Below the pieces are notes generated by a model. The model had not been told where the DNA came from. It was given only the letters and a program-made list of their open reading frames with translations, and searched no databases. A stretch of 64,000 bases of DNA. Source: Pseudomonas sp. Z8(2022) (lineage in GTDB: Bacteria > Pseudomonadota > Gammaproteobacteria > Pseudomonadales > Pseudomonadaceae). The stretch is taken from assembly GCF_025837155.1 (NCBI RefSeq), contig NZ_CP107549.1:868001-932000 (forward strand). Direction: 5' to 3'. The translations under genes were made by a program, and so were the position numbers. Below, in pieces: positions 7,543-20,421 of the stretch (its first letter is position 1; the number at the start of each line of letters is the position of its first letter).

Positions 7543-8718
7543 TTACAGCAGCTCGATGGCCACCGCGGTGGCTTCGCCGCCACCGATGCACAGCGAGGCG
7601 ATGCCGCGCTTGCCGCCTTTCTTCTGCAGGGCGTTGATCAGGGTAAGGATGATCCGCGAGCCGGTGGAGCCAACCGGATGGCCCTGAGCGCAGGCGCCGC
7701 CGAACACGTTGACCTTGGCATGATCCAGACCGTGTTCGCGCATCGCCAACATGGTCACCATGGCGAAGGCTTCGTTGATCTCGAACAGGTCGACTTCGTC
7801 CTTGCTCCAGCCGGTCTTCTTCAGCAAATTGCCCATGGCACCGATGGGCGCCAGGGTGAATTCACTCGGGTCCTGGCTCTGGGTGGCATGGGCAACGACT
7901 CTGGCCAATGGCTTGAGGCCGCGCCTGGCTGCTTCATCGGCGGTCATCAGCAGCAGGGCGCTGGCACCGTCGGAAATCGAGCTGGCGTTGGCCGCAGTGA
8001 TGGTGCCGTCCTTCTTGAAGGCAGGCCTGAGGGTGGGAATCTTGTCCAGATTGGCAGTAAGGGGCTGTTCGTCATCCTTGACCACCACTTCGCCCTTGCG
8101 CGAAGTCACGGTGACCGGAACGATCTCGGCATCCAGAGATCCGTCCTTGATCGCGGTCTGGGCGCGCTTGAGCGATTCGATGGCGTAAGCGTCCATCTCT
8201 TCGCGGGTGATGCCGTAGCTGTCGGCCGTCTCCTGAGCGAAGGAGCCCATCAGTCGGCCCGTGCGGGCATCTTCGAGGCCGTCGAGAAACATGTGATCCT
8301 TGATCTCGCCATGGCCCATGCGCAGACCGGTACGGGCCTTTTCCAGTACATAGGGCGCGTTGGACATGCTCTCCATGCCGCCGGCGATCATGACCTGATT
8401 ACTGCCGGCTTTCAGCGAGTCGACGGCCATCATCACCGCCTTCATGCCGGAACCACACAGCTTGTTGATGGTGGTGCAGCCAGTGGCTGCTGGCAGTCCG
8501 GCATTCAGCGCAGCCTGGCGAGCAGGGCCCTGCTTGAGGCCGGCCGGCAGCACGCAGCCCATGATGACTTCCTGGACGTCGGCCGGCTCGATGCCGGCGC
8601 GTCTGACAGTCTCACGAATGGCGGCGGCGCCCAATTCGACGGCCGGCACGCTGGCCAGGCCGCCTTGAAAACCGCCCATGGGAGTACGGGCGCCGCTGAC
8701 GATGACGATATCGGACAT
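7543..8718 (-). CDS. Acetyl-CoA acyltransferase (thiolase)
   Basis: A thiolase of 391 aa. Seen: the acylated cysteine Cys88 in NKLCGSGMKA, His347 in GGACAQGHPVG, and the second catalytic cysteine Cys377 in CIGGGEA. It either condenses two acetyl-CoA or cleaves 3-ketoacyl-CoA. The length and the GHPVG/CIGGG motifs fit biosynthetic or degradative acetyl-CoA acetyltransferases (AtoB/PhaA group). It is divergent from the acyl-CoA ligase, so it may belong to the same fatty-acid module. The start follows GAGGT. Confidence 0.93.
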   Translation of the reverse strand: MSDIVIVSGARTPMGGFQGGLASVPAVELGAAAIRETVRRAGIEPADVQEVIMGCVLPAGLKQGPARQAALNAGLPAATGCTTINKLCGSGMKAVMMAVDSLKAGSNQVMIAGGMESMSNAPYVLEKARTGLRMGHGEIKDHMFLDGLEDARTGRLMGSFAQETADSYGITREEMDAYAIESLKRAQTAIKDGSLDAEIVPVTVTSRKGEVVVKDDEQPLTANLDKIPTLRPAFKKDGTITAANASSISDGASALLLMTADEAARRGLKPLARVVAHATQSQDPSEFTLAPIGAMGNLLKKTGWSKDEVDLFEINEAFAMVTMLAMREHGLDHAKVNVFGGACAQGHPVGSTGSRIILTLINALQKKGGKRGIASLCIGGGEATAVAIELL

Positions 8719-8873
8719 GTGTTACCTCGGACGAAAAGAGGGGACTCGATGCAGCCTTTTCAGTACTGGCTGGTTGGACCGATTCTAACCTGTGACCAAA
8801 AGTGGCCATAGAGTCACGAGGCAAATCATTCTTTGGGCTGATTGAGTGGGGCGGGAGCCGCTCTAGAGTCGCT

Positions 8874-8907: not shown

Positions 8908-10590
8908 ATGCTGCAGACCCGACTGATCCCACCCGCCGAAAACGCTCATGCCTATCCGCTTTTGATCAAGCGCCTGCTGCTGTCCGGCAGTCGTTATGAG
9001 AAGACCCGCGAAATCGTCTATCGCGACAAGTTGCGATACAGCTATGCGACCTTCAACGAGCGTGTCGCGCGTCTGGCCAACGTGCTCAGCGAGGCCGGAG
9101 TCAAGGCCGGCGACACCGTGGCGGTGATGGACTGGGACAGCCATCGCTACCTCGAGTGCATGTTCGCCATTCCCATGCTCGGCGCGGTGCTGCATACCAT
9201 CAACATCCGCCTGTCGCCGGATCAGATCCTCTACACCATGAACCACGCCGAAGACCGCTTCGTGCTGGTCAACAGCGAATTCGTGCCGCTGTACAACGGT
9301 ATTGCCGGGCAACTCACCACGGTGGAGAAAACCCTGCTGCTGACCGATGGCGAAGACAGGAGCGCCAACCTGGCGAATCTTGTCGGCGAATACGAGAGCC
9401 TGCTGGCAGCGGCCAGCGCGCAGTACGACTTCGCCGATTTCGACGAAAACTCGGTCGCCACCACCTTCTATACGACCGGGACGACCGGCAATCCCAAGGG
9501 CGTGTACTTCACCCACCGGCAACTGGTGCTGCACACCCTGTCCATGGCGACCACCATGGGCGGTCTGGACAGCATTCGCCTGCTGGGCAACGACGACGTC
9601 TACATGCCGATCACGCCGATGTTCCATGTGCATGCCTGGGGCGTGCCCTACGTGGCCACCATGCTCGGGGTCAAGCAGGTATATCCCGGCCGCTACGAGC
9701 CGGACATGCTGTGCCGGCTGATCAAGGAAGAGAAGGTCAACTTCTCCCACTGCGTGCCGACCATCCTGCAGATGGTGTTGGCTGCACCGGGGGCGCAGGA
9801 CCATGATTTCGGCGGCATGAAGATGATCATCGGCGGCAGTGCGCTCAATCGCTCCCTGTACGAGGCGGCCAAGGCGCGAGGCATTCAATTGACCGCAGCC
9901 TATGGCATGTCCGAAACCTGTCCGCTGATCTCCTGCGCCTACCTCAACGAGGAGCTTCGCGCAGGCAGCGAAGACGAACGCACCACATACCGAATCAAGG
10001 CGGGTATCCCGGTGCCGCTGGTGGAAGCCGCGATCATGGATGCCGAAGGCCAGTTGCTGCCGCGTGATGGTGAATCGCAGGGCGAGCTGGTGTTGCGTGC
10101 CCCCTGGCTGACCCAGGGCTATTTCCGCGAGCCGGAGAAGGGCGAAGAGCTCTGGGCTCATGGCTGGCTGCACACCGGCGACGTGGCGACCATCGACGGC
10201 ATGGGTTTCATCGAGATTCGTGATCGCATCAAGGATGTGATCAAGACGGGAGGCGAGTGGATCTCGTCGCTGGAGCTGGAAGATCTGATCAGTCGCCATC
10301 CTGCGGTACGGGAAGTCGCGGTGGTGGGCGTGCCTGATCCGCAGTGGGGCGAACGCCCGTTTGCGCTGCTGGTGCTGCGTGAAGAGCAGGGGCTGGATGC
10401 CAAGGGGCTCAAGGAGCATCTCAAGCCCTTCGTCGAGCAGGGACACATCAACAAGTGGGCGATCCCCACGCAGATCGCGCTTGTTACCGAAATTCCCAAG
10501 ACCAGTGTCGGAAAGCTGGACAAGAAGCGCATTCGCGTCGAAATCGCCCAGTGGCAGGAGGCAGGCAGCGCTTTCCTGTCCACGCTGTGA
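8908..10590 (+). CDS. Fatty acid-CoA ligase (AlkK-like)
   Basis: An ATP-dependent acyl-CoA synthetase of 560 aa that activates a carboxylic acid, likely a medium- or long-chain fatty acid. Seen: the AMP-binding P-loop TTGTTGNPKG at about 190, the YGMSETCP motif, the adenylate-binding HTGD, and the C-terminal catalytic lysine region ending in KTSVGKLDKKRIR. It resembles the AlkK family of medium-chain ligases. The start ATG follows CAAGGTGA. The genes that follow (DUF1302, DUF1329, MalT-type regulator) suggest it activates acids released from an imported lipid or ester. Confidence 0.9.
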   Translation: MLQTRLIPPAENAHAYPLLIKRLLLSGSRYEKTREIVYRDKLRYSYATFNERVARLANVLSEAGVKAGDTVAVMDWDSHRYLECMFAIPMLGAVLHTINIRLSPDQILYTMNHAEDRFVLVNSEFVPLYNGIAGQLTTVEKTLLLTDGEDRSANLANLVGEYESLLAAASAQYDFADFDENSVATTFYTTGTTGNPKGVYFTHRQLVLHTLSMATTMGGLDSIRLLGNDDVYMPITPMFHVHAWGVPYVATMLGVKQVYPGRYEPDMLCRLIKEEKVNFSHCVPTILQMVLAAPGAQDHDFGGMKMIIGGSALNRSLYEAAKARGIQLTAAYGMSETCPLISCAYLNEELRAGSEDERTTYRIKAGIPVPLVEAAIMDAEGQLLPRDGESQGELVLRAPWLTQGYFREPEKGEELWAHGWLHTGDVATIDGMGFIEIRDRIKDVIKTGGEWISSLELEDLISRHPAVREVAVVGVPDPQWGERPFALLVLREEQGLDAKGLKEHLKPFVEQGHINKWAIPTQIALVTEIPKTSVGKLDKKRIRVEIAQWQEAGSAFLSTL

Positions 10591-10616
10591 GGTGCGGACT
10601 GGCTGGTCGGCTAAAG

Positions 10617-10630
10617 TGACTGGCCAGTCA
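10617..10630. repeat. 14-bp perfect palindrome
   Basis: TGACTGGCCAGTCA reads the same on both strands. It lies 26 bases after the ligase stop and shares two bases with the PsrA-like motif that follows. It could be a separate operator. There is no T-tract, so it is not a terminator. Confidence 0.6.
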
Positions 10631-10642
10631 AACAAGCGTTTG
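10629..10642. promoter_or_regulatory. PsrA-type operator motif
   Basis: CAAACAAGCGTTTG matches the consensus (G/C)AAAC-N2-4-GTTT(G/C) exactly, with a four-base spacer. PsrA is a TetR-family regulator of Pseudomonas released by long-chain fatty acids. The site lies between the acyl-CoA ligase and the DUF1302 gene, about 165 bases before the latter's start, so it could control the DUF1302-DUF1329 pair. Confidence 0.55.
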
Positions 10643-10807
10643 GCTTGCTAATTGCTGTTTCACGTCCATGCTTGGCTAGGTGCAGCGTCTGAAACCTGCG
10701 AGCCAGAGTGCCTGGGGGCTGCAAATCACACTTTCGAGGGATCAAGCAGTACCACCTGCTGGCTATAGTCCAAGCATCCATAACAAAAAACACATGGAGT
10801 AGCGTCG

Positions 10808-12745
10808 ATGACAACAAAAACAACACCGTACTGGCGCCTGGCAAAACTGCCGCTGGCCGTCAGCCTCGCATCCACCCTTGCCGCCCCGGCATTCGGCGTC
10901 ACTTTCAATATTGGCGAGATCGAAGGGCAGTTCGACTCGGCGCTGTCGGTGGGGGCGAGTTGGTCTACGCAGAGCGCCGATAAAGATCTGATTGGCTTCA
11001 ACAATGGCGGCCGAGGCCTGTCGCAGACCTCCGATGACTCCAAGCTGAACTTCAAGCGAGGCGAAACCTTCTCCAAGATATTTAAAGGTGTTCATGACCT
11101 TGAACTTCGCTATGGCGATACCGGCGTGTTTGTTCGTGGTAAGTATTGGTACGACTTCGAGTTGAAGGATGAAAGCCGTCCTTTCAAAGATATCAGCGAT
11201 AGCAATCGCAAAGAGGGTGCACAGTCCTCTGGTGGTGAGATTCTCGACGCATTCATCTATCACAACTACGCGATCGGCAACCAACCGGGCTCTGTACGTC
11301 TTGGTAAGCAAGTAGTGAACTGGGGTGAAAGCACCTTTATTGGTAACAGCATCAACTCAGTCAACCCTATCGATGTAGCTGCCTTCCGCCGACCGGGTGC
11401 CGAGATCAAGGAAGGCCTGATTCCGGTCAACATGTTCTTCATCTCGCAGAGTTTGACCGACAATCTCTCCATGGAGGCGTTCTACCAGCTCGAGTGGGAT
11501 CAAACCGTCGTCGATAACTGCGGAACCTTCTTTGCTCAGCCGGATGTCGTTGCCGATGGATGTGACGATAATCTGCGCGTACTGCGCTCCAGGTCATCCC
11601 TGCCTGCTGCAGCGCTTGGAGCTGCTGATCTGTTCGGCGTTGACATCAACGATGAAGGTGTTCTGGTTAAGCGTGGCGCCGACCGTGATGCTCGTGACAG
11701 TGGGCAGTGGGGCGTTGCTTTCCGCTATATCTTCGAACCATTGGATACAGAGTTCGGCTTCTACGCCATGAACTACCACAGCCGAGCCCCTATCTTCAGC
11801 GGCCAGGCGGGTAGTGAGGCGGCGTACACCGCAATTGACAACTTTGTCGCGGCATCGCCTGCTGCACGAGCTTCTCTTGCGCCGCTCCTGGCTGCTGGGG
11901 CTGGTAATTACTTCCTTGAATATCCGGAAGATATTCGACTTTACGGCATAAGCTTCGCGACTACCTTGCCAACCGGCACAGCATGGAGTGGGGAGATCAG
12001 CTACCGCCCGAATGCACCTCTGCAGTTGAACACGACCGACGTTCTGTATTCAGGCCTCAAGCCTCTTACAAGCATGCCGCTTACCGGCGGTATGTACGAT
12101 GGCTCTGGCGTCGGCAACGTGTCGCTGATCGATTCGGGGTTCGGTGCCACGGCCCATGGCTACAAACGTAAGGAGATCACTCAGTTCCAGACGACTCTGA
12201 CTCACTTCTTCGACCAGGTAATGGGAGCTTCTCGTCTCACCTTGGTTGGCGAGGTCGCGGTGGCCCATGTGGGGGGCTTGGAGAGTTCCGACAAGCTGCG
12301 CTACGGACGTGATCCGAGCTATGGACCGGGCCCGCTGGACGGAAACTATGCCGTTGGTGGCGTTGGTGTCTTCCCAACCTGTCAAGGTCTGAATACCGGG
12401 ACCTTGGGTAACAACCCCAACGCCAAGAACGTCAGCAAATACTGCGAAGACGATGGTTTCGTTACCTCTACTTCGTGGGGTTATCGCATTCGCGCCATCT
12501 GGGATTACCCCAACGTTTTTGCCGGCGTGAATCTGCGGCCGAGTGTTGCCTGGTCCCATGATGTGGAAGGTTATGGCCCGAATGGTTTGTTCACTGAAGA
12601 TGCTAAGGCTGTGAGCCTCGGCCTTAATGCTGAGTACCAGAATACCTATACCGCAGATCTGTCCTTTACCAGCTTCTTTGATGGCAAGTACAACACCGCC
12701 GTTGATCGCGACTTCGTTGCGCTCAGTTTCGGTATGAACTTCTAA
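10808..12745 (+). CDS. DUF1302 family exported protein, likely outer-membrane barrel
   Basis: A 645-aa protein with a signal peptide (cleavage about residue 29-30, after APAFG) and alternating aromatic/polar strands. It ends in the aromatic-terminated stretch ALSFGMNF, as outer-membrane beta-barrels do. DUF1302 proteins accompany DUF1329 proteins in gene sets for lipids, steroids and other hydrophobic compounds. Their activity is not established, and uptake across the outer membrane is inference. The start follows TGGAG. Codon use is visibly more AT-tolerant than in the DUF1329 gene next door. Confidence 0.85.
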   Translation: MTTKTTPYWRLAKLPLAVSLASTLAAPAFGVTFNIGEIEGQFDSALSVGASWSTQSADKDLIGFNNGGRGLSQTSDDSKLNFKRGETFSKIFKGVHDLELRYGDTGVFVRGKYWYDFELKDESRPFKDISDSNRKEGAQSSGGEILDAFIYHNYAIGNQPGSVRLGKQVVNWGESTFIGNSINSVNPIDVAAFRRPGAEIKEGLIPVNMFFISQSLTDNLSMEAFYQLEWDQTVVDNCGTFFAQPDVVADGCDDNLRVLRSRSSLPAAALGAADLFGVDINDEGVLVKRGADRDARDSGQWGVAFRYIFEPLDTEFGFYAMNYHSRAPIFSGQAGSEAAYTAIDNFVAASPAARASLAPLLAAGAGNYFLEYPEDIRLYGISFATTLPTGTAWSGEISYRPNAPLQLNTTDVLYSGLKPLTSMPLTGGMYDGSGVGNVSLIDSGFGATAHGYKRKEITQFQTTLTHFFDQVMGASRLTLVGEVAVAHVGGLESSDKLRYGRDPSYGPGPLDGNYAVGGVGVFPTCQGLNTGTLGNNPNAKNVSKYCEDDGFVTSTSWGYRIRAIWDYPNVFAGVNLRPSVAWSHDVEGYGPNGLFTEDAKAVSLGLNAEYQNTYTADLSFTSFFDGKYNTAVDRDFVALSFGMNF

Positions 12746-12768
12746 GCGGTCAGGAATTTCGAGGAATC

Positions 12769-14145
12769 ATGATGCAAATGAAAACAACAAAAAAACTGTG
12801 GCAAAGTGGCGTCCTGGCCCTGTCTCTGCTGGCAACCGGCGTCATGGCTGCCGTCTCGCCGGAAGAAGCAGCCAAGCTGGGTACGACCCTGACTCCGCTG
12901 GGTGGGGAAATGGCCGGCAACGCCGATGGATCGATCCCGGCCTGGACTGGCGGGCTGCCGGCCAATGCCGGTGCGGTCGATCCGCGCGGCTTCCTGGCCG
13001 ATCCGTTCGCCAATGAGCAGCCGCTGTTCACCATCACTGCGCAGAATGCCGAGCAGTACAAGGACAAGCTGACCCCCGGCCAGCTGGCCATGTTCAAGCG
13101 CTATCCGGAAAGCTACCGGATGCCGGTCTACCCAAGTCACCGTTCTGCCACCGTGCCGGCAGCGGTGATCGAGGCTACCAAGCAGAACGCGGTCAACACC
13201 AAGATGATCGAGGGTGGTAACGGTCTGGAGAACTTCCAGACCGCCAACCCGTTCCCGATTCCGCAGAACGGCCTGGAAGTGATCTGGAACCACATCACCC
13301 GTTACCGCGGTGGCAGCGTGCGCCGTGTGGTGACTCAGGCGACTCCGCAGCCGAACGGCTCATACTCGCTGGTCTACTTCCAGGACGAGTTCACCTTCCG
13401 CGATGCGCTGACCGACTTCGATCCGAGCAAGGAAAGCAACGTACTGTTCTACTTCAAACAGCGCGTGACCGCTCCGTCGCGTCTGGCCGGTAACGTGCTG
13501 CTGGTGCACGAGACTCTCAACCAGGTGAAGGAGCCGCGTCTGGCCTGGCTGTACAACGCCGGTCAGCGTCGCGTGCGTCGCGCTCCGCAGGTGTCCTATG
13601 ACGGTCCGGGTACCGCCGCAGACGGTCTGCGTACTTCCGACAACTTCGACATGTACAACGGTGCGCCGGATCGTTACGAGTGGAAGCTGGAAGGCAAGAA
13701 GGAGATCTACATCCCCTACAACTCCTACAAGCTGGACTCGCCGAACCTGAAGTACTCCGACGTCATCAAGGCCGGCCACCTCAACCAGGATCTGACTCGT
13801 TACGAGCTGCACCGCGTCTGGCACGTGACCGGCACCCTGAAGTCGGGTGAGCGTCACATCTATGCCAAGCGTGACTTCTACATCGACGAGGATACCTGGC
13901 AAGCCGCTCTGATCGACCATTACGACGGTCGTGGCACCCTGTGGCGCGTAGCCGAGGCGCATGCCCAGCACTACTACGACAAGCAGGTGCCGTGGTACAC
14001 CGTGGAAACCCTGTACGACCTGCTGTCGGGTCGCTACCTGGCGCTGGGTATGAAGAACGAGGAGAAGCAAGCCTACGACTTCAACTACAAGGCCTCCGGC
14101 AGCGATTACACCCCGGCCGCTCTGCGTCAGGCGGGCGTTCGCTAA
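12769..14145 (+). CDS. DUF1329 family exported protein
   Basis: A 458-aa secreted or periplasmic protein with a signal peptide (cleavage after VMA, about residue 27). The mature N-terminus contains the family-typical TLTPLGGEMAGNADGSIPAWTG-like opening (residues about 39-60). DUF1329 is predicted to be a LolB-like lipid-binding fold, so binding a hydrophobic molecule is plausible but unproven. It follows the DUF1302 gene by 23 bases and is surely co-transcribed. Three ATGs cluster at the start; GAGGA fits the first two. Confidence 0.87.
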   Translation: MMQMKTTKKLWQSGVLALSLLATGVMAAVSPEEAAKLGTTLTPLGGEMAGNADGSIPAWTGGLPANAGAVDPRGFLADPFANEQPLFTITAQNAEQYKDKLTPGQLAMFKRYPESYRMPVYPSHRSATVPAAVIEATKQNAVNTKMIEGGNGLENFQTANPFPIPQNGLEVIWNHITRYRGGSVRRVVTQATPQPNGSYSLVYFQDEFTFRDALTDFDPSKESNVLFYFKQRVTAPSRLAGNVLLVHETLNQVKEPRLAWLYNAGQRRVRRAPQVSYDGPGTAADGLRTSDNFDMYNGAPDRYEWKLEGKKEIYIPYNSYKLDSPNLKYSDVIKAGHLNQDLTRYELHRVWHVTGTLKSGERHIYAKRDFYIDEDTWQAALIDHYDGRGTLWRVAEAHAQHYYDKQVPWYTVETLYDLLSGRYLALGMKNEEKQAYDFNYKASGSDYTPAALRQAGVR

Positions 14146-14163
14146 AACCTGCCTCCTGCAATA

Positions 14164-14193
14164 CGAAAAGCCGGCCTTGTGCCGGCTTTTTCG
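14164..14193 (+). terminator. Intrinsic terminator after DUF1329
   Basis: CGAAAAGCCGGC pairs with GCCGGCTTTTTCG around a five-base loop, directly downstream of the DUF1329 stop. It separates the DUF1302-DUF1329 unit from the regulator gene. Confidence 0.9.
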
Positions 14194-14293
14194 TTACGGA
14201 CTGTAGCGGGCGCTTCAAATGGCCAGTGCAAGCCGCTAGGCTGGGCCCGGATCGAGCCCGCTGACGCAAAAGAAGACCTCCAAGAACAGGCCG

Positions 14294-17035
14294 ATGACAG
14301 ACCTCTCCCGCACGCCAGGTTTTCCCTATACGCCGGCCACGTCGGTGGACGCGCGTTTCTATCGTCCGCCACTGCCTGCAGGGCATATGCCTCGTCCCCG
14401 GCTGTGTGAGCGTCTCGAAGAGGGGCTGCAGGGGCGCTTGCTGCTGGTCAGCGCGCCAGCCGGCTTCGGCAAGAGTTCGCTGGCGATCGAGTTCTGCGAG
14501 CGACTATCCGATCACTGGCGTAGCCTGTGGCTGGGGCTGAGCGAGCGCGACAGCGATCCCGGGCGTTTTCTCGAGCGTTTGCTGCAGGGCCTGCAGCAGT
14601 TCTACCCCGGCCTCGGCGAGGAGGCGCTGGGGCTGCTCAAGATGCGCCAGCGTCACCAGCCATTCGCATTCGAACAATGGCTCGATGGCCTGCTCGACGA
14701 GCTGGCACAGAAGCTCGGCGACGGTCAGCCGCTGCTGCTGGTGCTGGATGATTATCATCTGGCGCAGGGGCCGGTGCTCGATCGATGCCTGCAGTTCTTC
14801 CTCAACCATCTGCCATCCGGGGTGTTGCTGCTGGTCACCAGCCGTCAGCGGCCGGACTGGCATCTCGCGCGTCTGCGTCTGTCGCGGCAATTGCTCGAAC
14901 TGAACGAACAGGACCTGCGCCTGACCTCCCGCGAGCTGGACGCCCTGCTGGCGAACCAAGGGGCACACCTCGAGCGGCAACAGATCGACGGAATCCTGCA
15001 GCGCAGCGAGGGCTGGATCGCGGGTTTGCGCCTATGGCTGTTGGCCGCCGAAGAGCTGCAGCAGTCAGGTGAGGGGCTGCAGCTGCACGGCGGTGAGGGG
15101 CTGATTCGTGAGTACCTGCTCGAAGAGGTCATCGAACGCCAGCCCGCAGAGGTTCAACAATTTCTCTATGACACCGCCTGCATGGAGCGTTTCTGCGCGG
15201 AACTGTGCGATGCGGTTCGTGACAGCCATGACAGCGCTGCGATCATCCGCCAGTTGCAGGCCAATCAGGTATTTCTGGTGCCTCTCGATGATCAGGGGCG
15301 CTGGTTCCGTTATCACCACCTGTTTTCCGATCTGCTCAATGCGCGGCCTGCCGAAGGGTTGAGTCGATCTCGCAGCAGTACTCACTTGCGCGCCTGTCGC
15401 TGGTTCGCTGCGCAGGGCCTGCTCGACGCCGCCATCGAACAGGCGTTGCTGGCCGGGCAATCGGATGTCGCCGCCAGCCTGGTGCAGAATCTTTCCGAAG
15501 AGCAGATGCTGGCCGAGCAGAATATCGCCATGCTGCTGCGCTGGAAGGCCAATCTGCCGGATGATCTGCTGGCCAGCACAACGCGACTGATCATGCTCTA
15601 CGGCTGGGCGCTGGCGCTCGCCTGTCAGCTCGATGCCGCGCAGGAACTGCTCGACCAGCTCGGCCGATTCCTGCCAGCTGCCGATCCGGTCAGCCAGCGC
15701 AGCCTGCTGGCGCAGTGGCAGGCGCTCGATGGGGTCATCGCACGTGGGCGTGGCGATGGTGCCCGTGCCGAGCAGCAGTGCAGCGAGGCGTTGGCCGGCT
15801 TGCCGGCGGAGCGCTATGGCCCGCACTTCATGTGCCTGTCGGCCCTGGCCAATCTGGCCATGGTCCGTGGTGACCTGTGGCGTGCACGGGGGCTTAACCG
15901 CGACGCACTGGAGCTGGCGCAGCGTATCGACAATCCCCTGTTTGAAGCTCTGGCGCACTATGAGCGCGCCCGGGTACTGCAGGGGCGTGGCGAAGTACTG
16001 CGCGCGCAGGATGAAGTGCAGCAGGGTCTTCTGCAGGTACAGCGTTTACCCGCCCAGCGCCAGTATTCGGTGCGGGCGCGGTTGACCATCTATGAAGGCT
16101 ACCTGCTCGGCCTGCGTTTGCAGCCTCGGGCCGTGGAACGCTTGCGCGCCGGCGTCGCCGAGGCCAGGGCGTGTCGCGATGTCGGTGCGTTGATCGGTTA
16201 CTGCGTGCTGGCCAGTCTCGAAGGCCGCGATGGGCGCTCCGCCGAGGCCTTCGCCCTGCTTGGTGAGGCCGAACGCCTGATGCATGTCTGGGACGTGCCG
16301 GCGATCTATTACCTGGCGATGATCACCCTGATGAAATGCGAGCTGTGGTTGCGTCAGGGCCAGGTCGAGCTGGCCGCGGCCTGGCTGCCGCAGCTGGCGG
16401 AAACCTACAGCGAAGGGCGTGCGCTGGCACCGGAGTTTCATCCGCAGATGGCGCTGCACATCGACCTGCAGCAGGCAGCTCTGGATCGTCTGCAGGGTGA
16501 TCTGGAAAGTGCCGAACGGCGTCTGCGGGCCTTGCAGCCGCGAGCACAGGGATTGGGTTGCCAACTGGTCGGCCTGGCGGCGCAGGCGCAGCTCGCTCAG
16601 CTGTTGCGGCAAACCGGGCGGGCGCGTGAGGCGCAGCAACAGCTCGACAGATGCCTGGATCTCGCACAGGGCGGAGCGCTGTTGCCGTTCATCGAGCTGG
16701 TGCAGCATCAGCCGCAGTGGCTGCGTGAACGCCTGCAGGAGCGTTCGTCGTCCTGTCAGGTCCGCGACGCCTTGCTCGCGCAGTTACCAGCGGAACAGCA
16801 CGCGCCCGACTTGTCTGAGGTCGAGGCGGAACCGCTCACCGAGAAACTCAGCGGACGCGAGCTGGCGGTACTGCAGCTGATTGCGCGTGGCTGTTCGAAC
16901 CAGGAGATCAGCGAGCGCCTGTTCATCTCCCTGCACACGGTCAAGACCCATGCCCGGCACATCAACAGCAAGCTGGGCGTCGAACGGCGTACCCAGGCCG
17001 TCGCCCGTGCCAAGGCATTGGGGCTGTTGCGCTGA
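14294..17035 (+). CDS. MalT-type (LAL) LuxR-family transcriptional activator
   Basis: A large ATP-binding regulator of 913 aa. Seen: Walker A in APAGFGKSS at 54-62, Walker B LLLVLDDYH near 150, a long helical repeat middle typical of TPR-like MalT sensor regions, and a C-terminal LuxR helix-turn-helix (last about 60 residues, with LSGRELAVLQLIARG and NQEISERLFISLHTVKTH). LAL regulators such as MalT and AlkS switch on catabolic genes upon binding an inducer and ATP. Position directly after ligase-DUF1302-DUF1329 suggests it controls them. The ribosome site (AGG) is weak. Confidence 0.9.
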   Translation: MTDLSRTPGFPYTPATSVDARFYRPPLPAGHMPRPRLCERLEEGLQGRLLLVSAPAGFGKSSLAIEFCERLSDHWRSLWLGLSERDSDPGRFLERLLQGLQQFYPGLGEEALGLLKMRQRHQPFAFEQWLDGLLDELAQKLGDGQPLLLVLDDYHLAQGPVLDRCLQFFLNHLPSGVLLLVTSRQRPDWHLARLRLSRQLLELNEQDLRLTSRELDALLANQGAHLERQQIDGILQRSEGWIAGLRLWLLAAEELQQSGEGLQLHGGEGLIREYLLEEVIERQPAEVQQFLYDTACMERFCAELCDAVRDSHDSAAIIRQLQANQVFLVPLDDQGRWFRYHHLFSDLLNARPAEGLSRSRSSTHLRACRWFAAQGLLDAAIEQALLAGQSDVAASLVQNLSEEQMLAEQNIAMLLRWKANLPDDLLASTTRLIMLYGWALALACQLDAAQELLDQLGRFLPAADPVSQRSLLAQWQALDGVIARGRGDGARAEQQCSEALAGLPAERYGPHFMCLSALANLAMVRGDLWRARGLNRDALELAQRIDNPLFEALAHYERARVLQGRGEVLRAQDEVQQGLLQVQRLPAQRQYSVRARLTIYEGYLLGLRLQPRAVERLRAGVAEARACRDVGALIGYCVLASLEGRDGRSAEAFALLGEAERLMHVWDVPAIYYLAMITLMKCELWLRQGQVELAAAWLPQLAETYSEGRALAPEFHPQMALHIDLQQAALDRLQGDLESAERRLRALQPRAQGLGCQLVGLAAQAQLAQLLRQTGRAREAQQQLDRCLDLAQGGALLPFIELVQHQPQWLRERLQERSSSCQVRDALLAQLPAEQHAPDLSEVEAEPLTEKLSGRELAVLQLIARGCSNQEISERLFISLHTVKTHARHINSKLGVERRTQAVARAKALGLLR

Positions 17036-17331: not shown

Positions 17332-18273
17332 ATGACTGCCAAAAGCCTGCAACTGCAACCGCCGCTGGCTGCCGGTTTCGCCCGTCTGGGCTTCGGTGCG
17401 CTATCGCTGGAGCGCCTCAAGGCGCGTTACGGCAATGCCGCCGACGGCTCCCGCTATATCGAACTCGACGGCTTCAACATCCACTATCGCGATGAGGGTA
17501 GCCGCGACAAGCCCGCACTGGTGATGATTCATGGCGTTGTGGCCTCGCTGCACACCTGGGATGGCTGGGTGCAGGTGTTCGCTTGCGATTACCGCATCAT
17601 CCGCTTCGATGTGCCCGGATTCGGTCTGACCGGCCCGGCACGTGACGGGGAATATTCGGCCGAGCGCATGACGCGGGTGCTCGGTCTGCTGCTCGATTAC
17701 CTGCAGGTGGACAAGGCCGATATCGCCGGTAATTCACTCGGCGGCTACATCGCCTGGAACTTCGCTCTGTCGCAGCCACAGCGTGTCGGCAAACTGGTAC
17801 TGATCGATCCGGCCGGTTACCACATGCACAAGGTGCCGTGGATGATTGCCGCCGCCGCGCTGCCCGGTGCGAGAGTTGCCATGCCGCTATGGATGCCGCG
17901 CGCATTGATCGCTCAGGGCATCAGGGAGGTCTACGGTGAGCCGGGGCGGATCAGGCCGGGCGTGGTCGATCGCTACTACGACCTTTCACGGCGGCCGGGT
18001 AATCGCCGCGGAATGGTCGACATCTTCCGGGTACTGCTGAAAGTCAATCAGGAGCAGCTCCATGCAACGCCCGGGCGGGTCGCACGGATTAAGGCGCCAA
18101 CCCTGCTGCTGTGGGGCGAGCGTGATCGCTGGATATCCCCGCAGCAGGTGCCACTGTGGCAGCGCGATCTGCCGGGGATTCAGGTCCGGGTCTATCCGGG
18201 TGTCGGGCATATTCCGATGGAGGAGATTCCCGAGCAGAGCGCAGCCGATGCGATGAACTTTCTGCAAGGTTGA
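17332..18273 (+). CDS. Alpha/beta-fold hydrolase
   Basis: A serine hydrolase of 313 aa. Seen: the oxyanion-hole motif MIHGVVAS, the nucleophile elbow GNSLGG with Ser135, the acid Asp265 in GERDRW, and His293 in GVGHIPME, all in the correct order. A hydrophobic/basic N-terminal stretch precedes the core. Relatives include esterases, lipases and haloalkane dehalogenases; Ser as nucleophile favours an esterase. I chose the ATG at 17332 because GAGGTG precedes it at proper spacing; an ATG 30 bases upstream is possible. A role in releasing acids for the nearby acyl-CoA ligase is inference. Confidence 0.88.
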   Translation: MTAKSLQLQPPLAAGFARLGFGALSLERLKARYGNAADGSRYIELDGFNIHYRDEGSRDKPALVMIHGVVASLHTWDGWVQVFACDYRIIRFDVPGFGLTGPARDGEYSAERMTRVLGLLLDYLQVDKADIAGNSLGGYIAWNFALSQPQRVGKLVLIDPAGYHMHKVPWMIAAAALPGARVAMPLWMPRALIAQGIREVYGEPGRIRPGVVDRYYDLSRRPGNRRGMVDIFRVLLKVNQEQLHATPGRVARIKAPTLLLWGERDRWISPQQVPLWQRDLPGIQVRVYPGVGHIPMEEIPEQSAADAMNFLQG

Positions 18274-18293
18274 GGCCCGTGAAATCCCGCAAT

Positions 18294-18325
18294 ACAAAAA
18301 GCCCGGACAGGCTCCGGGCTTTTGT
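18294..18325. terminator. Bidirectional intrinsic terminator
   Basis: ACAAAAAGCCCGGA pairs with TCCGGGCTTTTGT. It lies between the converging hydrolase and PF10118 genes. Confidence 0.9.
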
Positions 18326-18348
18326 AGGCGTCTGGTCAGGGATTCGCT

Positions 18349-19182
18349 TCAGGCCGCTTGCCGGGCGCCATCGAATTCCTCGCGCGCGGCATGTAGCAGA
18401 TCCAGATTGTTGTGCTCCCAGGGATGGAAGCCGTCCTTGAAGAAATCCAGATAGGCGCGCAGCTGCGGGCGGAACACGCCGTCCTTGCCCCACATCCAGC
18501 GGATGCCGTCGCGCCATACGCGCCAGTTCCACAGCAGGCCGTCGACCCTGAGCATATGCGCCAGGCCTCGCGTGGTGTCGAGCACGAAGAAGAAGGTGCC
18601 CATGATCATCGCCCGGCGCAGCAGCCTGCGACTGCCACACACCTGGTTGTAGACGTCGAAGGCCACCGCCTTGTGCTCGGTTTCCTCCAGCGCATGCCAG
18701 CGCCACAGGCGGGTCATTGTCGGGTGTGCGTCGGCCATATAGGCGCCATCTCTCAGCAAGCCATCGGCCAGGATCGCAGTGATGTGCTCCAGCGCTGCGG
18801 TAGCGGCCAGCTGGCGCTGCGGCGAGAACCTCTTCTGCGTATATCGGATGCGCCTGCGGGCACGCTTCTCCATGCGCCCGACGTCGTAGCCGAGGTCGCG
18901 CAGGCGCTGGCTGTACTCCAGATGTTCACGGCTGTGATGACCTTCCTGGCCGATGAAGCCACGAATCTGTTCCCTGAGGACCGGATCGTCGATGCGCTCG
19001 CGGAACTGACGCACCGAGTCGATGAAAAAACGCTCGCCGTCGGGGAACAATACTGACATGGCGTCGAACAGATGTGTCTTGAAGGCATCGCCGCCGTTCC
19101 AGTGGCGCGGCAGCGGGTTGGGCAGATCGAAATCCATATGTCTGGGGCGTATCTGCAATCCTTCCGGAGTTGTGCTGGCCAT
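18349..19182 (-). CDS. Predicted metal-dependent hydrolase (PF10118)
   Basis: A 277-aa protein of the PF10118 family, annotated as predicted metal-dependent hydrolases. Seen: conserved acidic/His clusters EGHHSREH at 80-87 and HALEETEHK at 163-171 in a helical background, resembling ferritin-like di-metal sites (Glu-x-x-His twice). No reaction is established for the family. The start follows GGAGA. The gene is divergent from an AraC-type regulator with 213 bases between starts, a layout that often means the regulator controls the divergent gene. Confidence 0.83.
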   Translation of the reverse strand: MASTTPEGLQIRPRHMDFDLPNPLPRHWNGGDAFKTHLFDAMSVLFPDGERFFIDSVRQFRERIDDPVLREQIRGFIGQEGHHSREHLEYSQRLRDLGYDVGRMEKRARRRIRYTQKRFSPQRQLAATAALEHITAILADGLLRDGAYMADAHPTMTRLWRWHALEETEHKAVAFDVYNQVCGSRRLLRRAMIMGTFFFVLDTTRGLAHMLRVDGLLWNWRVWRDGIRWMWGKDGVFRPQLRAYLDFFKDGFHPWEHNNLDLLHAAREEFDGARQAA

Positions 19183-19395
19183 GGGGTCTCCAATGGGCTA
19201 TTTGCCTGGCTGTCACTATGGGCGCTGCGCACGCCTGGGCACAGGTTCGTAACAGCCAAGGTTGCGGTCATATCCGGCCAGCGGCCTGTTCCAGCAGAAA
19301 GTTGTGGTAGCGACAGAGCGGCGAACAGGTAGTCCTTGAGTTAAGGTTTTTCATCAGTCCGGTCATCTGCGGCCAGCTACCCGAACGACAAGCCC

Positions 19396-20421
19396 ATGAA
19401 GCAAACCCTCAATTTCACCGCCGCACTGGTTCCCGTCGCGTACGCCGAGGCGCTGCTGGCGCTGGCCGAAGAACTGGGCCAGACGCGTGGCGAACTGTTT
19501 GTCGCGGCACGGGTACGCCCTGAGGTGCTGGGCAGCCCCAATGGCCGATTGTCCTTTCTCGATTTTCACCTGTTGACTCAGGCCGCGCTGGAGCGTTGCG
19601 GCGAGCCCGCGCTCGGTCTGGTCCTGGGCCAGCGCCTGAACGTGTCTACGCACGGCATCCTGGGTTACGCGGTGTTGTCCAGCGCCAATCTGGGCAAGGC
19701 CCTGCAGTTCGCCCTGAAGTACTACCGCGTGCTGGGGCTGTCCTTCGAGCTGGAGCTGGTGGAGCAGGGGCAGGATGTGGAGTTGCGTGCGGTCGAGTCC
19801 TTTCCCATGGGGCCGCAATCGCGTTTTACCAGCGAAGGTCTGCTGACCAGCATTCACACCATCGCGCGTTTTCTTCTGGGCGAGGAGTTGCGCGGTTTGG
19901 CCGTCGGTTTCGCCCATTCCGCACCGGACTATGCAGAGCGCTATGCCGAGGTGTTCGGCGTAGCCGCGCAGTTCGAGCAGCCCTATAACTGGCTGCGCCT
20001 GCCCCGGCATTATCTGCAGCGGCCCATGGCCCTGGCCAACCCGGCCACCGTGCAGATGTGCGAGCAGCAGTGCGAGGCGCTGCTGGCCAGTCTCGACGTG
20101 CAGGATGGCCTGCTCACCCGGGTACGACGCCTGTTACTGGCTCGCCCGGGTGACTTCCCCGACCTGGAAAGCGCCGCGAGCGCCCTGCATACCAGCGGCC
20201 GCAGCCTGCGTCGGCATCTGGCGCAGATGGGCACCAGCTATCAGCAGGTGCTCGATGACGTACGCAAGCGCCTGGCGTTGCAGTACCTCACCACCACGCA
20301 CTTGCCGCTGTATGAAATCGCCCAGCTGCTGGGCTTCAGTGACCCTTCCAATTTCCGTCGTGCATTCCGCAAATGGACCGGTAAACTGCCCGGCGACTAC
20401 CGCAACGAGGCCTCCCGATGA
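19396..20421 (+). CDS. AraC-family regulator with Arabinose_bd-type N-terminal domain
   Basis: A 341-aa regulator. The N-terminal about 200 residues match the PF12625 type ligand-sensing domain seen in OruR/ArgR-unrelated Pseudomonas AraC proteins. The C-terminal about 90 residues hold two helix-turn-helices, the second with the signature LYEIAQLLGFSDPSNFRRAFRKWTG. The likely targets are the divergent PF10118 gene and possibly the hydrolase. Its stop overlaps the start of the next gene by four bases (ATGA), so the two are translationally coupled. The ligand is unknown. Confidence 0.9.
   Translation: MKQTLNFTAALVPVAYAEALLALAEELGQTRGELFVAARVRPEVLGSPNGRLSFLDFHLLTQAALERCGEPALGLVLGQRLNVSTHGILGYAVLSSANLGKALQFALKYYRVLGLSFELELVEQGQDVELRAVESFPMGPQSRFTSEGLLTSIHTIARFLLGEELRGLAVGFAHSAPDYAERYAEVFGVAAQFEQPYNWLRLPRHYLQRPMALANPATVQMCEQQCEALLASLDVQDGLLTRVRRLLLARPGDFPDLESAASALHTSGRSLRRHLAQMGTSYQQVLDDVRKRLALQYLTTTHLPLYEIAQLLGFSDPSNFRRAFRKWTGKLPGDYRNEASR

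Follow-up and report, generated by a model that had tools for sequence, protein, structure and literature searches.

The closest described counterparts of the locus analysed here are found in Pseudomonas putida, Pseudomonas aeruginosa and Castellaniella defragrans. In P. putida, PP_0765 (DUF1302) and PP_0766 (DUF1329) are reported to be essential for Tween 20 metabolism and growth, and their fitness correlates with that of a periplasmic protein, PP_2018, and an RND transporter, PP_2019 (PMC10866462). An AlphaFold study (Foldy) proposed a transport complex of DUF1302 and DUF1329 with the unlinked periplasmic protein and RND transporter, and moved off the idea of a hydrolase (PMC10866462). The P. 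putida ligase PP_0763 uses C5-C10 acids (PMC9744835), and the P. aeruginosa ligase PA3924 (FadD6) uses C6-C12 acids (PMC3667196). PA3924 is upregulated with cis-2-decenoic acid, and published work on PA3923, the P. aeruginosa DUF1302 protein, concerns laminin binding and biofilms. In C. defragrans, deletion of AmeABCD lowers monoterpene tolerance and increases the Nile Red load, and the system was read as an exporter (PMC6394551), although real-time Nile Red efflux kinetics were equal in wild type and mutant.

Locus identity and conservation of gene order

The window is a 64,000-nucleotide stretch of the 4.47-Mb genome of Pseudomonas sp. Z8(2022), in which the proteins neighbouring the locus are 91-97% identical to those of the Pseudomonas mendocina/oleovorans group. 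The four open reading frames named in a preliminary description of this DNA (ligase, DUF1302, DUF1329 and LAL regulator) were all present on the + strand with the domains attributed to them, next to a divergent thiolase gene:

7543-8718, - strand: thiolase (acetyl-CoA C-acyltransferase), opposite strand to the ligase; Pfam Thiolase_N/C
8908-10590, + strand: medium-chain acyl-CoA ligase, FadD6/PP_0763 ortholog; AMP-binding motifs, Pfam/NCBIfam and synteny
10808-12745, + strand: DUF1302 protein, predicted outer-membrane barrel; PF06980 and structure model
12769-14145, + strand: DUF1329 periplasmic protein, predicted LolA-like fold; PF07044 and fold matches
14294-17035, + strand: LAL (MalT/AlkS-type) transcription regulator; domains and operator co-loss

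The ligase starts with the ATG at 8908, downstream of AGGTGACTCC, matches Pfam AMP-binding (E 5e-77) and AMP-binding_C, and carries all of the motifs TTGTTGNPK, YGMSE, GWLHTGD and KTSVGK of a FadD-type acyl-CoA ligase. The thiolase is the divergent neighbour upstream of the ligase in most of 80 Pseudomonas loci, has an upstream operator region in common with it, and belongs to the same unit as the four + strand genes. The order ligase, DUF1302, DUF1329, LAL with an adjoining thiolase is that of PP_0763-0766 and of the fadD6 locus, and the locus is the ortholog of both. The preliminary description had pointed to the region PP_0763-PP_0765, a correspondence that holds with a range one gene short (PP_0763 encodes the ligase, PP_0765 DUF1302 and PP_0766 DUF1329). 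The P. putida genes PP_0763-PP_0766 with PP_2018/PP_2019 represent the same gene families and ligase specificity class as here. Synteny with the fadD6 locus of P. aeruginosa (ligase PA3924, DUF1302 protein PA3923) was seen in strain PA7 (L057), where identity to the proteins of the window locus was 85% for the ligase, 85% for DUF1329 and 65% for LAL; DUF1302 is just 66% identical. AmeABCD combines the same families, DUF1302, DUF1329, a YCF48-type protein and an HAE3 RND transporter, in four linked, monoterpene-induced genes, whereas here the A-B pair lies apart from C-D and has a ligase and LAL as its companions; the DUF1302-DUF1329 pair is present in the window locus and the YCF48 and HAE3 RND genes are absent from it.

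Comparison with 80 named Pseudomonas loci showed the gene order ligase-DUF1302-DUF1329-LAL in 68, the other 12 being cut by a contig end or mainly lacking LAL. Because the order recurs so widely it is not due to chance, and the conserved neighbourhood on which the preliminary description depended is borne out. Downstream of LAL, at 17332-20421, lie an alpha/beta hydrolase (17332-18273), a PF10118 metal-dependent hydrolase (- strand) and an AraC regulator, a trio that recurs together in many Pseudomonas loci and is moved or absent in others. A P. aeruginosa plasmid (CP109682.1, 190880-192247) encodes a DUF1329 protein 86% identical to that of the window.

The proposal that this was the best candidate for a new system does not stand, since the P. 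putida, P. aeruginosa and AmeABCD counterparts are published, including an orthologous locus and a transport proposal for DUF1302/DUF1329. The view that the family roles are essentially undescribed is likewise contradicted by the Tween 20 phenotype, AmeABCD, FadD6 and PA3923. New here are a candidate LAL operator, a terminator between DUF1329 and LAL, an unlinked, probably shared inner-membrane unit and a hypervariable predicted channel; for PP_0763-PP_0766, no earlier account of an operator, a terminator, a co-occurrence test or an analysis of loop diversity came to light. None of these features, nor the divergent thiolase, figured in the preliminary description.

Candidate LAL operators and probable transcript structure

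The regulator matched the MalT TPR region and GerE HTH in Pfam, with a Walker A sequence APAGFGKS at residue 54, giving it the P-loop ATPase, MalT-like TPR and C-terminal LuxR HTH of LAL regulators. It shares these domains, and promoters without a -35 element, with MalT/AlkS-type activators, and differs from them in having its own operator sequence and in scoring 320.9 bits against the MalT equivalog (NCBIfam PRK04841), below the cut-off of 537. The following elements were located in the intergenic regions:

8823-8844, + strand: candidate LAL operator 1, AAATCATTCTTTGGGCTGATTG, ligase promoter, in a conserved block between thiolase and ligase
8863-8869, + strand: -10-like element CTAGAGT, 40 bp from the start of operator 1, ligase promoter
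10629-10642, no strand assigned: PsrA-type box CAAACAAGCGTTTG, upstream of DUF1302, fitting the published consensus
10723-10744, + strand: candidate LAL operator 2, AAATCACACTTTCGAGGGATCA, DUF1302 promoter, in a near-invariant block between ligase and DUF1302
10763-10769, + strand: -10-like element CTATAGT, 40 bp from the start of operator 2, DUF1302 promoter; no sigma-70 -35 match
14167-14189, + strand: terminator-like hairpin AAAGCCGGCCTTGTGCCGGCTTT followed by a T-rich tail, between DUF1329 and LAL

The joint operator pattern AAATCAnnCTTTnGnnnGAT occurred exactly twice per locus in 73 of the 80 loci, once in three and not at all in four. Two of the one-site loci are cut by a contig end, and the third (L097) has a weak match only, in a genome that also lacks LAL. 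Genome-wide, AAATCANNCTTTNGNNNGAT is matched exactly at just two positions, both inside this locus and one of them operator 1; of the 71 loci that have LAL alongside, 67 carry operator 2 with no more than two mismatches. In the operator-less genomes (L087, L088, L089 and L092) both sites are lost and LAL is absent genome-wide at E <= 1e-60; these four genomes belong to one clade, so the co-loss is essentially one event. Five further loci have both operators with LAL outside the fetched stretch, and each of these genomes encodes a 68-70% identical LAL elsewhere. Co-loss in what is essentially a single clade suggests that LAL likely acts on AAATCAnnCTTTnGnnnGAT, and control of the gene set by the regulator, as anticipated in the preliminary description, is supported at the sequence level by candidate operators before both the ligase and DUF1302 that are lost together with LAL.

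The distance from operator start to -10-like element was exactly 40 bp at the DUF1302 promoter in 65 of 76 loci, and at the ligase promoter 40 bp in 58 of 74 and 41 bp in 13 more (71/74 in total). No sigma-70 -35 element was seen, and an operator with a -10-like element and no -35 is the layout expected for a LAL-activated promoter. A site with one mismatch (AGATCATTCTTTTGAGCGAT) at a second DUF1302-DUF1329 cluster of this genome (locus B, below) was rejected, being kept in the nearest relatives only, and a LAL-like site at C1:281016 was taken as chance, there being no promoter of a related gene at that position. The exact PsrA-type pattern was present in 36 of 81 intergenic regions; because our own estimate puts the expected number of sites of this kind at approximately 0.4 in 64 kb, the box is treated as a lead only.

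An equivalent of the hairpin lies 3' of DUF1329 in 65 of 71 loci. A single four-gene operon was rejected on account of this conserved terminator-like hairpin preceding LAL; since it separates DUF1329 from LAL, the regulator is probably transcribed apart, as its own transcript, from DUF1302-DUF1329.

Predicted channel and carrier, and the inner-membrane pump

The only Pfam match of the DUF1302 protein is PF06980, which covers the whole protein (E 1e-173). Outer-membrane barrels end in Phe, and the C-terminal residue of this protein is Phe. Its model (pLDDT 77, pTM 0.76) has 18 strands, joined by short turns at one face and by long loops at the opposite one, and supports the earlier suggestion of an outer-membrane barrel. 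Its best fold matches in the PDB were Occ/OprD channels, MOMP and AlgE (Occ/OprD: Z approximately 23 over approximately 310 residues, at approximately 10% sequence identity); the lambda-LamB complex was also among them. The predicted fold is thus that of the 18-strand, substrate-specific Occ/OprD channels, from which DUF1302 differs by much longer loops and a different Pfam family, outside the OprD sequence family. No FadL-type match stood out, which carries no weight as evidence, and a PDB sequence search with the DUF1302 and DUF1329 alignments gave no match.

The DUF1329 protein (PF07044, E 2e-163) has a signal-peptide-like N-terminus. Its low-confidence model (pLDDT 56) gave LolA3, a solved DUF1329 protein and LolA-family proteins as top fold matches (Z 6-8), and Pfam LolA_like scored 28.2 bits, below the threshold of 30. 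From these predictions the protein looks like a LolA-type carrier rather than an esterase.

Searches of the same genome found three DUF1302 genes, four DUF1329 genes, one YCF48-type gene and one matching HAE3-type RND gene. The YCF48 and RND genes lie at C1:1567974-1571316, approximately 690 kb from the window locus, in a complete DUF1302-DUF1329-YCF48-RND cluster (locus B, C1:1564-1571 kb). A third DUF1302-DUF1329 pair (locus C, L019, G000:C1:3318000-3337000) has its own LAL and adjoins genes for a LysR regulator, an ato-type CoA-transferase, a thiolase and an AtoE-like transporter, and an orphan DUF1329 gene (L020:8101-9420) has no DUF1302 close by. In the mendocina group, locus B is mosaic (L139 and L140 against L018: DUF1329 98% identical, RND 76%), the RND gene having been replaced in some lineages.

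Of 119 Pseudomonadaceae genomes, 96 had RND together with DUF1329, often unlinked, and 23 had neither; this co-occurrence follows genus lines (14 genera with the genes, 5 lacking them). Among 187 genomes of the class, RND was found in 29 of the 31 carrying a full-length DUF1302, the two exceptions being fragmented drafts of approximately 290 and 330 contigs. The DUF1302-DUF1329 pair adjoins the YCF48-RND pair in 18 of 20 pump loci of one set; in a second set of 22, most have the YCF48-RND pair alone, often after pepN, and because DUF1302/DUF1329 are mostly missing alongside, these lone pumps would serve only unlinked pairs. In the wider class outside Pseudomonas, the four genes were clustered in all 21 places inspected, with an acyl ligase or thiolase nearby in eight. 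In one of the eight (L196:561-4562, - strand, genome G051), a DUF1302-DUF1329-YCF48 cluster ends in an HAE3-type RND whose reading frame is shared with an acyl-CoA ligase domain; this may be a natural fusion or, given an internal Shine-Dalgarno sequence with an ATG, two abutting genes. Elsewhere (L193:3134-5749, - strand; L194:1656-4247, + strand) a DUF1329 domain is fused C-terminal to a TPR-like region of approximately 400 residues. Most simply, the four genes were together in an ancestor, and in Pseudomonas the outer half was then multiplied while few copies of the inner half were retained.

Proposed function and DUF1302 allele diversity

We consider it reasonably probable that the locus encodes a regulated fatty-acid/lipid acquisition system. 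DUF1302 would be a substrate-specific outer-membrane channel that hands a hydrophobic acyl compound to DUF1329 as a LolA-like periplasmic carrier, and the inner half would be the YCF48-type protein and HAE3-type RND from C1:1567974-1571316, common to several DUF1302-DUF1329 pairs. The FadD6-type ligase would trap the acid as acyl-CoA for beta-oxidation with the divergent thiolase, and LAL would bind AAATCAnnCTTTnGnnnGAT at two sites to switch on two rightward transcripts (ligase; DUF1302-DUF1329) from promoters without a -35. Direct LAL binding, the inducer, the direction of transport and physical contact between the parts are aspects of this scheme that we infer. The acquisition reading is supported by the Tween 20 requirement of PP_0765/PP_0766 and their co-fitness with PP_2018/PP_2019, by the C5-C10 and C6-C12 substrates of related ligases, which also uphold the lipid/fatty-acid role first suggested, and by the rise of PA3924 with cis-2-decenoic acid. 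Further support comes from RND/DUF1329 co-occurrence, the four-gene clusters, operator/LAL co-loss, and the ato-type catabolic and transporter genes adjoining locus C. It is weakened by the one-clade operator loss, the genus-clumped co-occurrence and the low confidence of the DUF1329 model.

The exporter reading of AmeABCD also weighs against acquisition, and RND/MMPL pumps usually export. DUF1302-DUF1329 and the RND pump might instead expel toxic acyl compounds or detergents that the ligase degrades, the loss of growth on Tween 20 then reflecting toxicity, as the lower monoterpene tolerance and higher Nile Red load of the AmeABCD deletion would suggest. This we regard as unlikely, given the linkage to catabolic genes both here and in other genomes, the equal real-time Nile Red efflux of wild type and AmeABCD mutant, and the reported requirement of PP_0765/0766 for Tween 20 metabolism. 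More improbable still is that Tween-like esters are cut by DUF1329, or by the DUF1302-DUF1329 pair, acting as an esterase at the surface or in the periplasm, the ligase activating the freed acid. The Tween 20 phenotype, an earlier suspicion of a hydrolase in the literature (PMC10866462) and the alpha/beta hydrolase gene downstream of LAL would fit such an enzyme, but Pfam shows no hydrolase domain in DUF1329, and its model matched LolA-type carriers, along with a solved DUF1329 protein for which no activity is stated. Cleavage of the substrate by DUF1329, as the preliminary description had it, is therefore not supported, and the Foldy authors also left that idea.

Returning to the predicted channel of the acquisition system, DUF1302 is exceptionally variable among 14 mendocina-group genomes, in which mean identity was 96.6% for the ligase, 96.1% for the thiolase, 94.5% for DUF1329 and 90% for LAL, against 66% for DUF1302, which equals the mean for this protein across the genus. 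DUF1302 identity did not correlate with that of the ligase (r 0.09; DUF1329, r 0.78), and dS was 1.58, against 0.39 for DUF1329, 0.49 for the ligase and 0.74 for LAL. Nucleotide identity falls sharply at approximately 10940, past the signal peptide, and recovers by approximately 12740. The strands are 84% identical and the hypervariable predicted loops L4-L7 45%, these loops being:

Residues 256-286 of DUF1302: L4
Residues 330-366: L5
Residues 410-449: L6
Residues 507-548: L7

With loops excluded, the DUF1302 tree rejected monophyly of the mendocina group (p 6e-5), and the ligase tree keeps the group together. An artefact of loop alignment was rejected, as barrel codons alone gave a dS of 1.64 and also rejected monophyly, and so was hypervariability as a general DUF1302 trait, since in the same genomes identity was 70-83% at the window locus (locus A), 62-83% at locus B and 89-95% at locus C. 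These patterns are best fitted by whole-allele exchange, which would be under diversifying selection, with phage, bacteriocin, host or substrate as candidate agents. Compatible with a role in transport, the variation may reflect escape from phage or bacteriocins (or a predator) that use the channel as a receptor, with loops or whole alleles swapped by recombination. We rate this a serious possibility, slightly short of evenly balanced: the variation sits in the long loops L4-L7 opposite the short turns, dS far exceeds that of the neighbouring genes, the barrel tree breaks up the group, the locus C paralogue is conserved, and the 18-strand porin LamB, seen among the fold matches, is a known phage receptor; however, no DUF1302-dependent phage or bacteriocin came to light, and relaxed constraint or substrate-driven diversification would also vary loops.

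More tentatively, the observations could be combined in a hub-and-adaptor transporter, in which several DUF1302-DUF1329 adaptors, part of them under a LAL of their own, use one often-unlinked RND/YCF48 unit, the exposed barrels of two adaptors being under recombination-driven diversifying selection as a phage/bacteriocin target and that of the third conserved. No activity has been assigned to either DUF1302 or DUF1329, although both families are widespread. A single fitness screen in P. putida had given a hint, which the co-occurrence extends to a prediction for the whole family, that a DUF1329 adaptor is always accompanied by an RND unit. With the candidate operator, an orphan LAL regulator gains a defined DNA target, and a reporter becomes available for identifying the inducer. 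Strong selection on a surface protein is indicated by the hypervariable barrel, and because the P. aeruginosa ortholog is reported as a laminin receptor, allele differences in DUF1302 should matter in adhesin studies.
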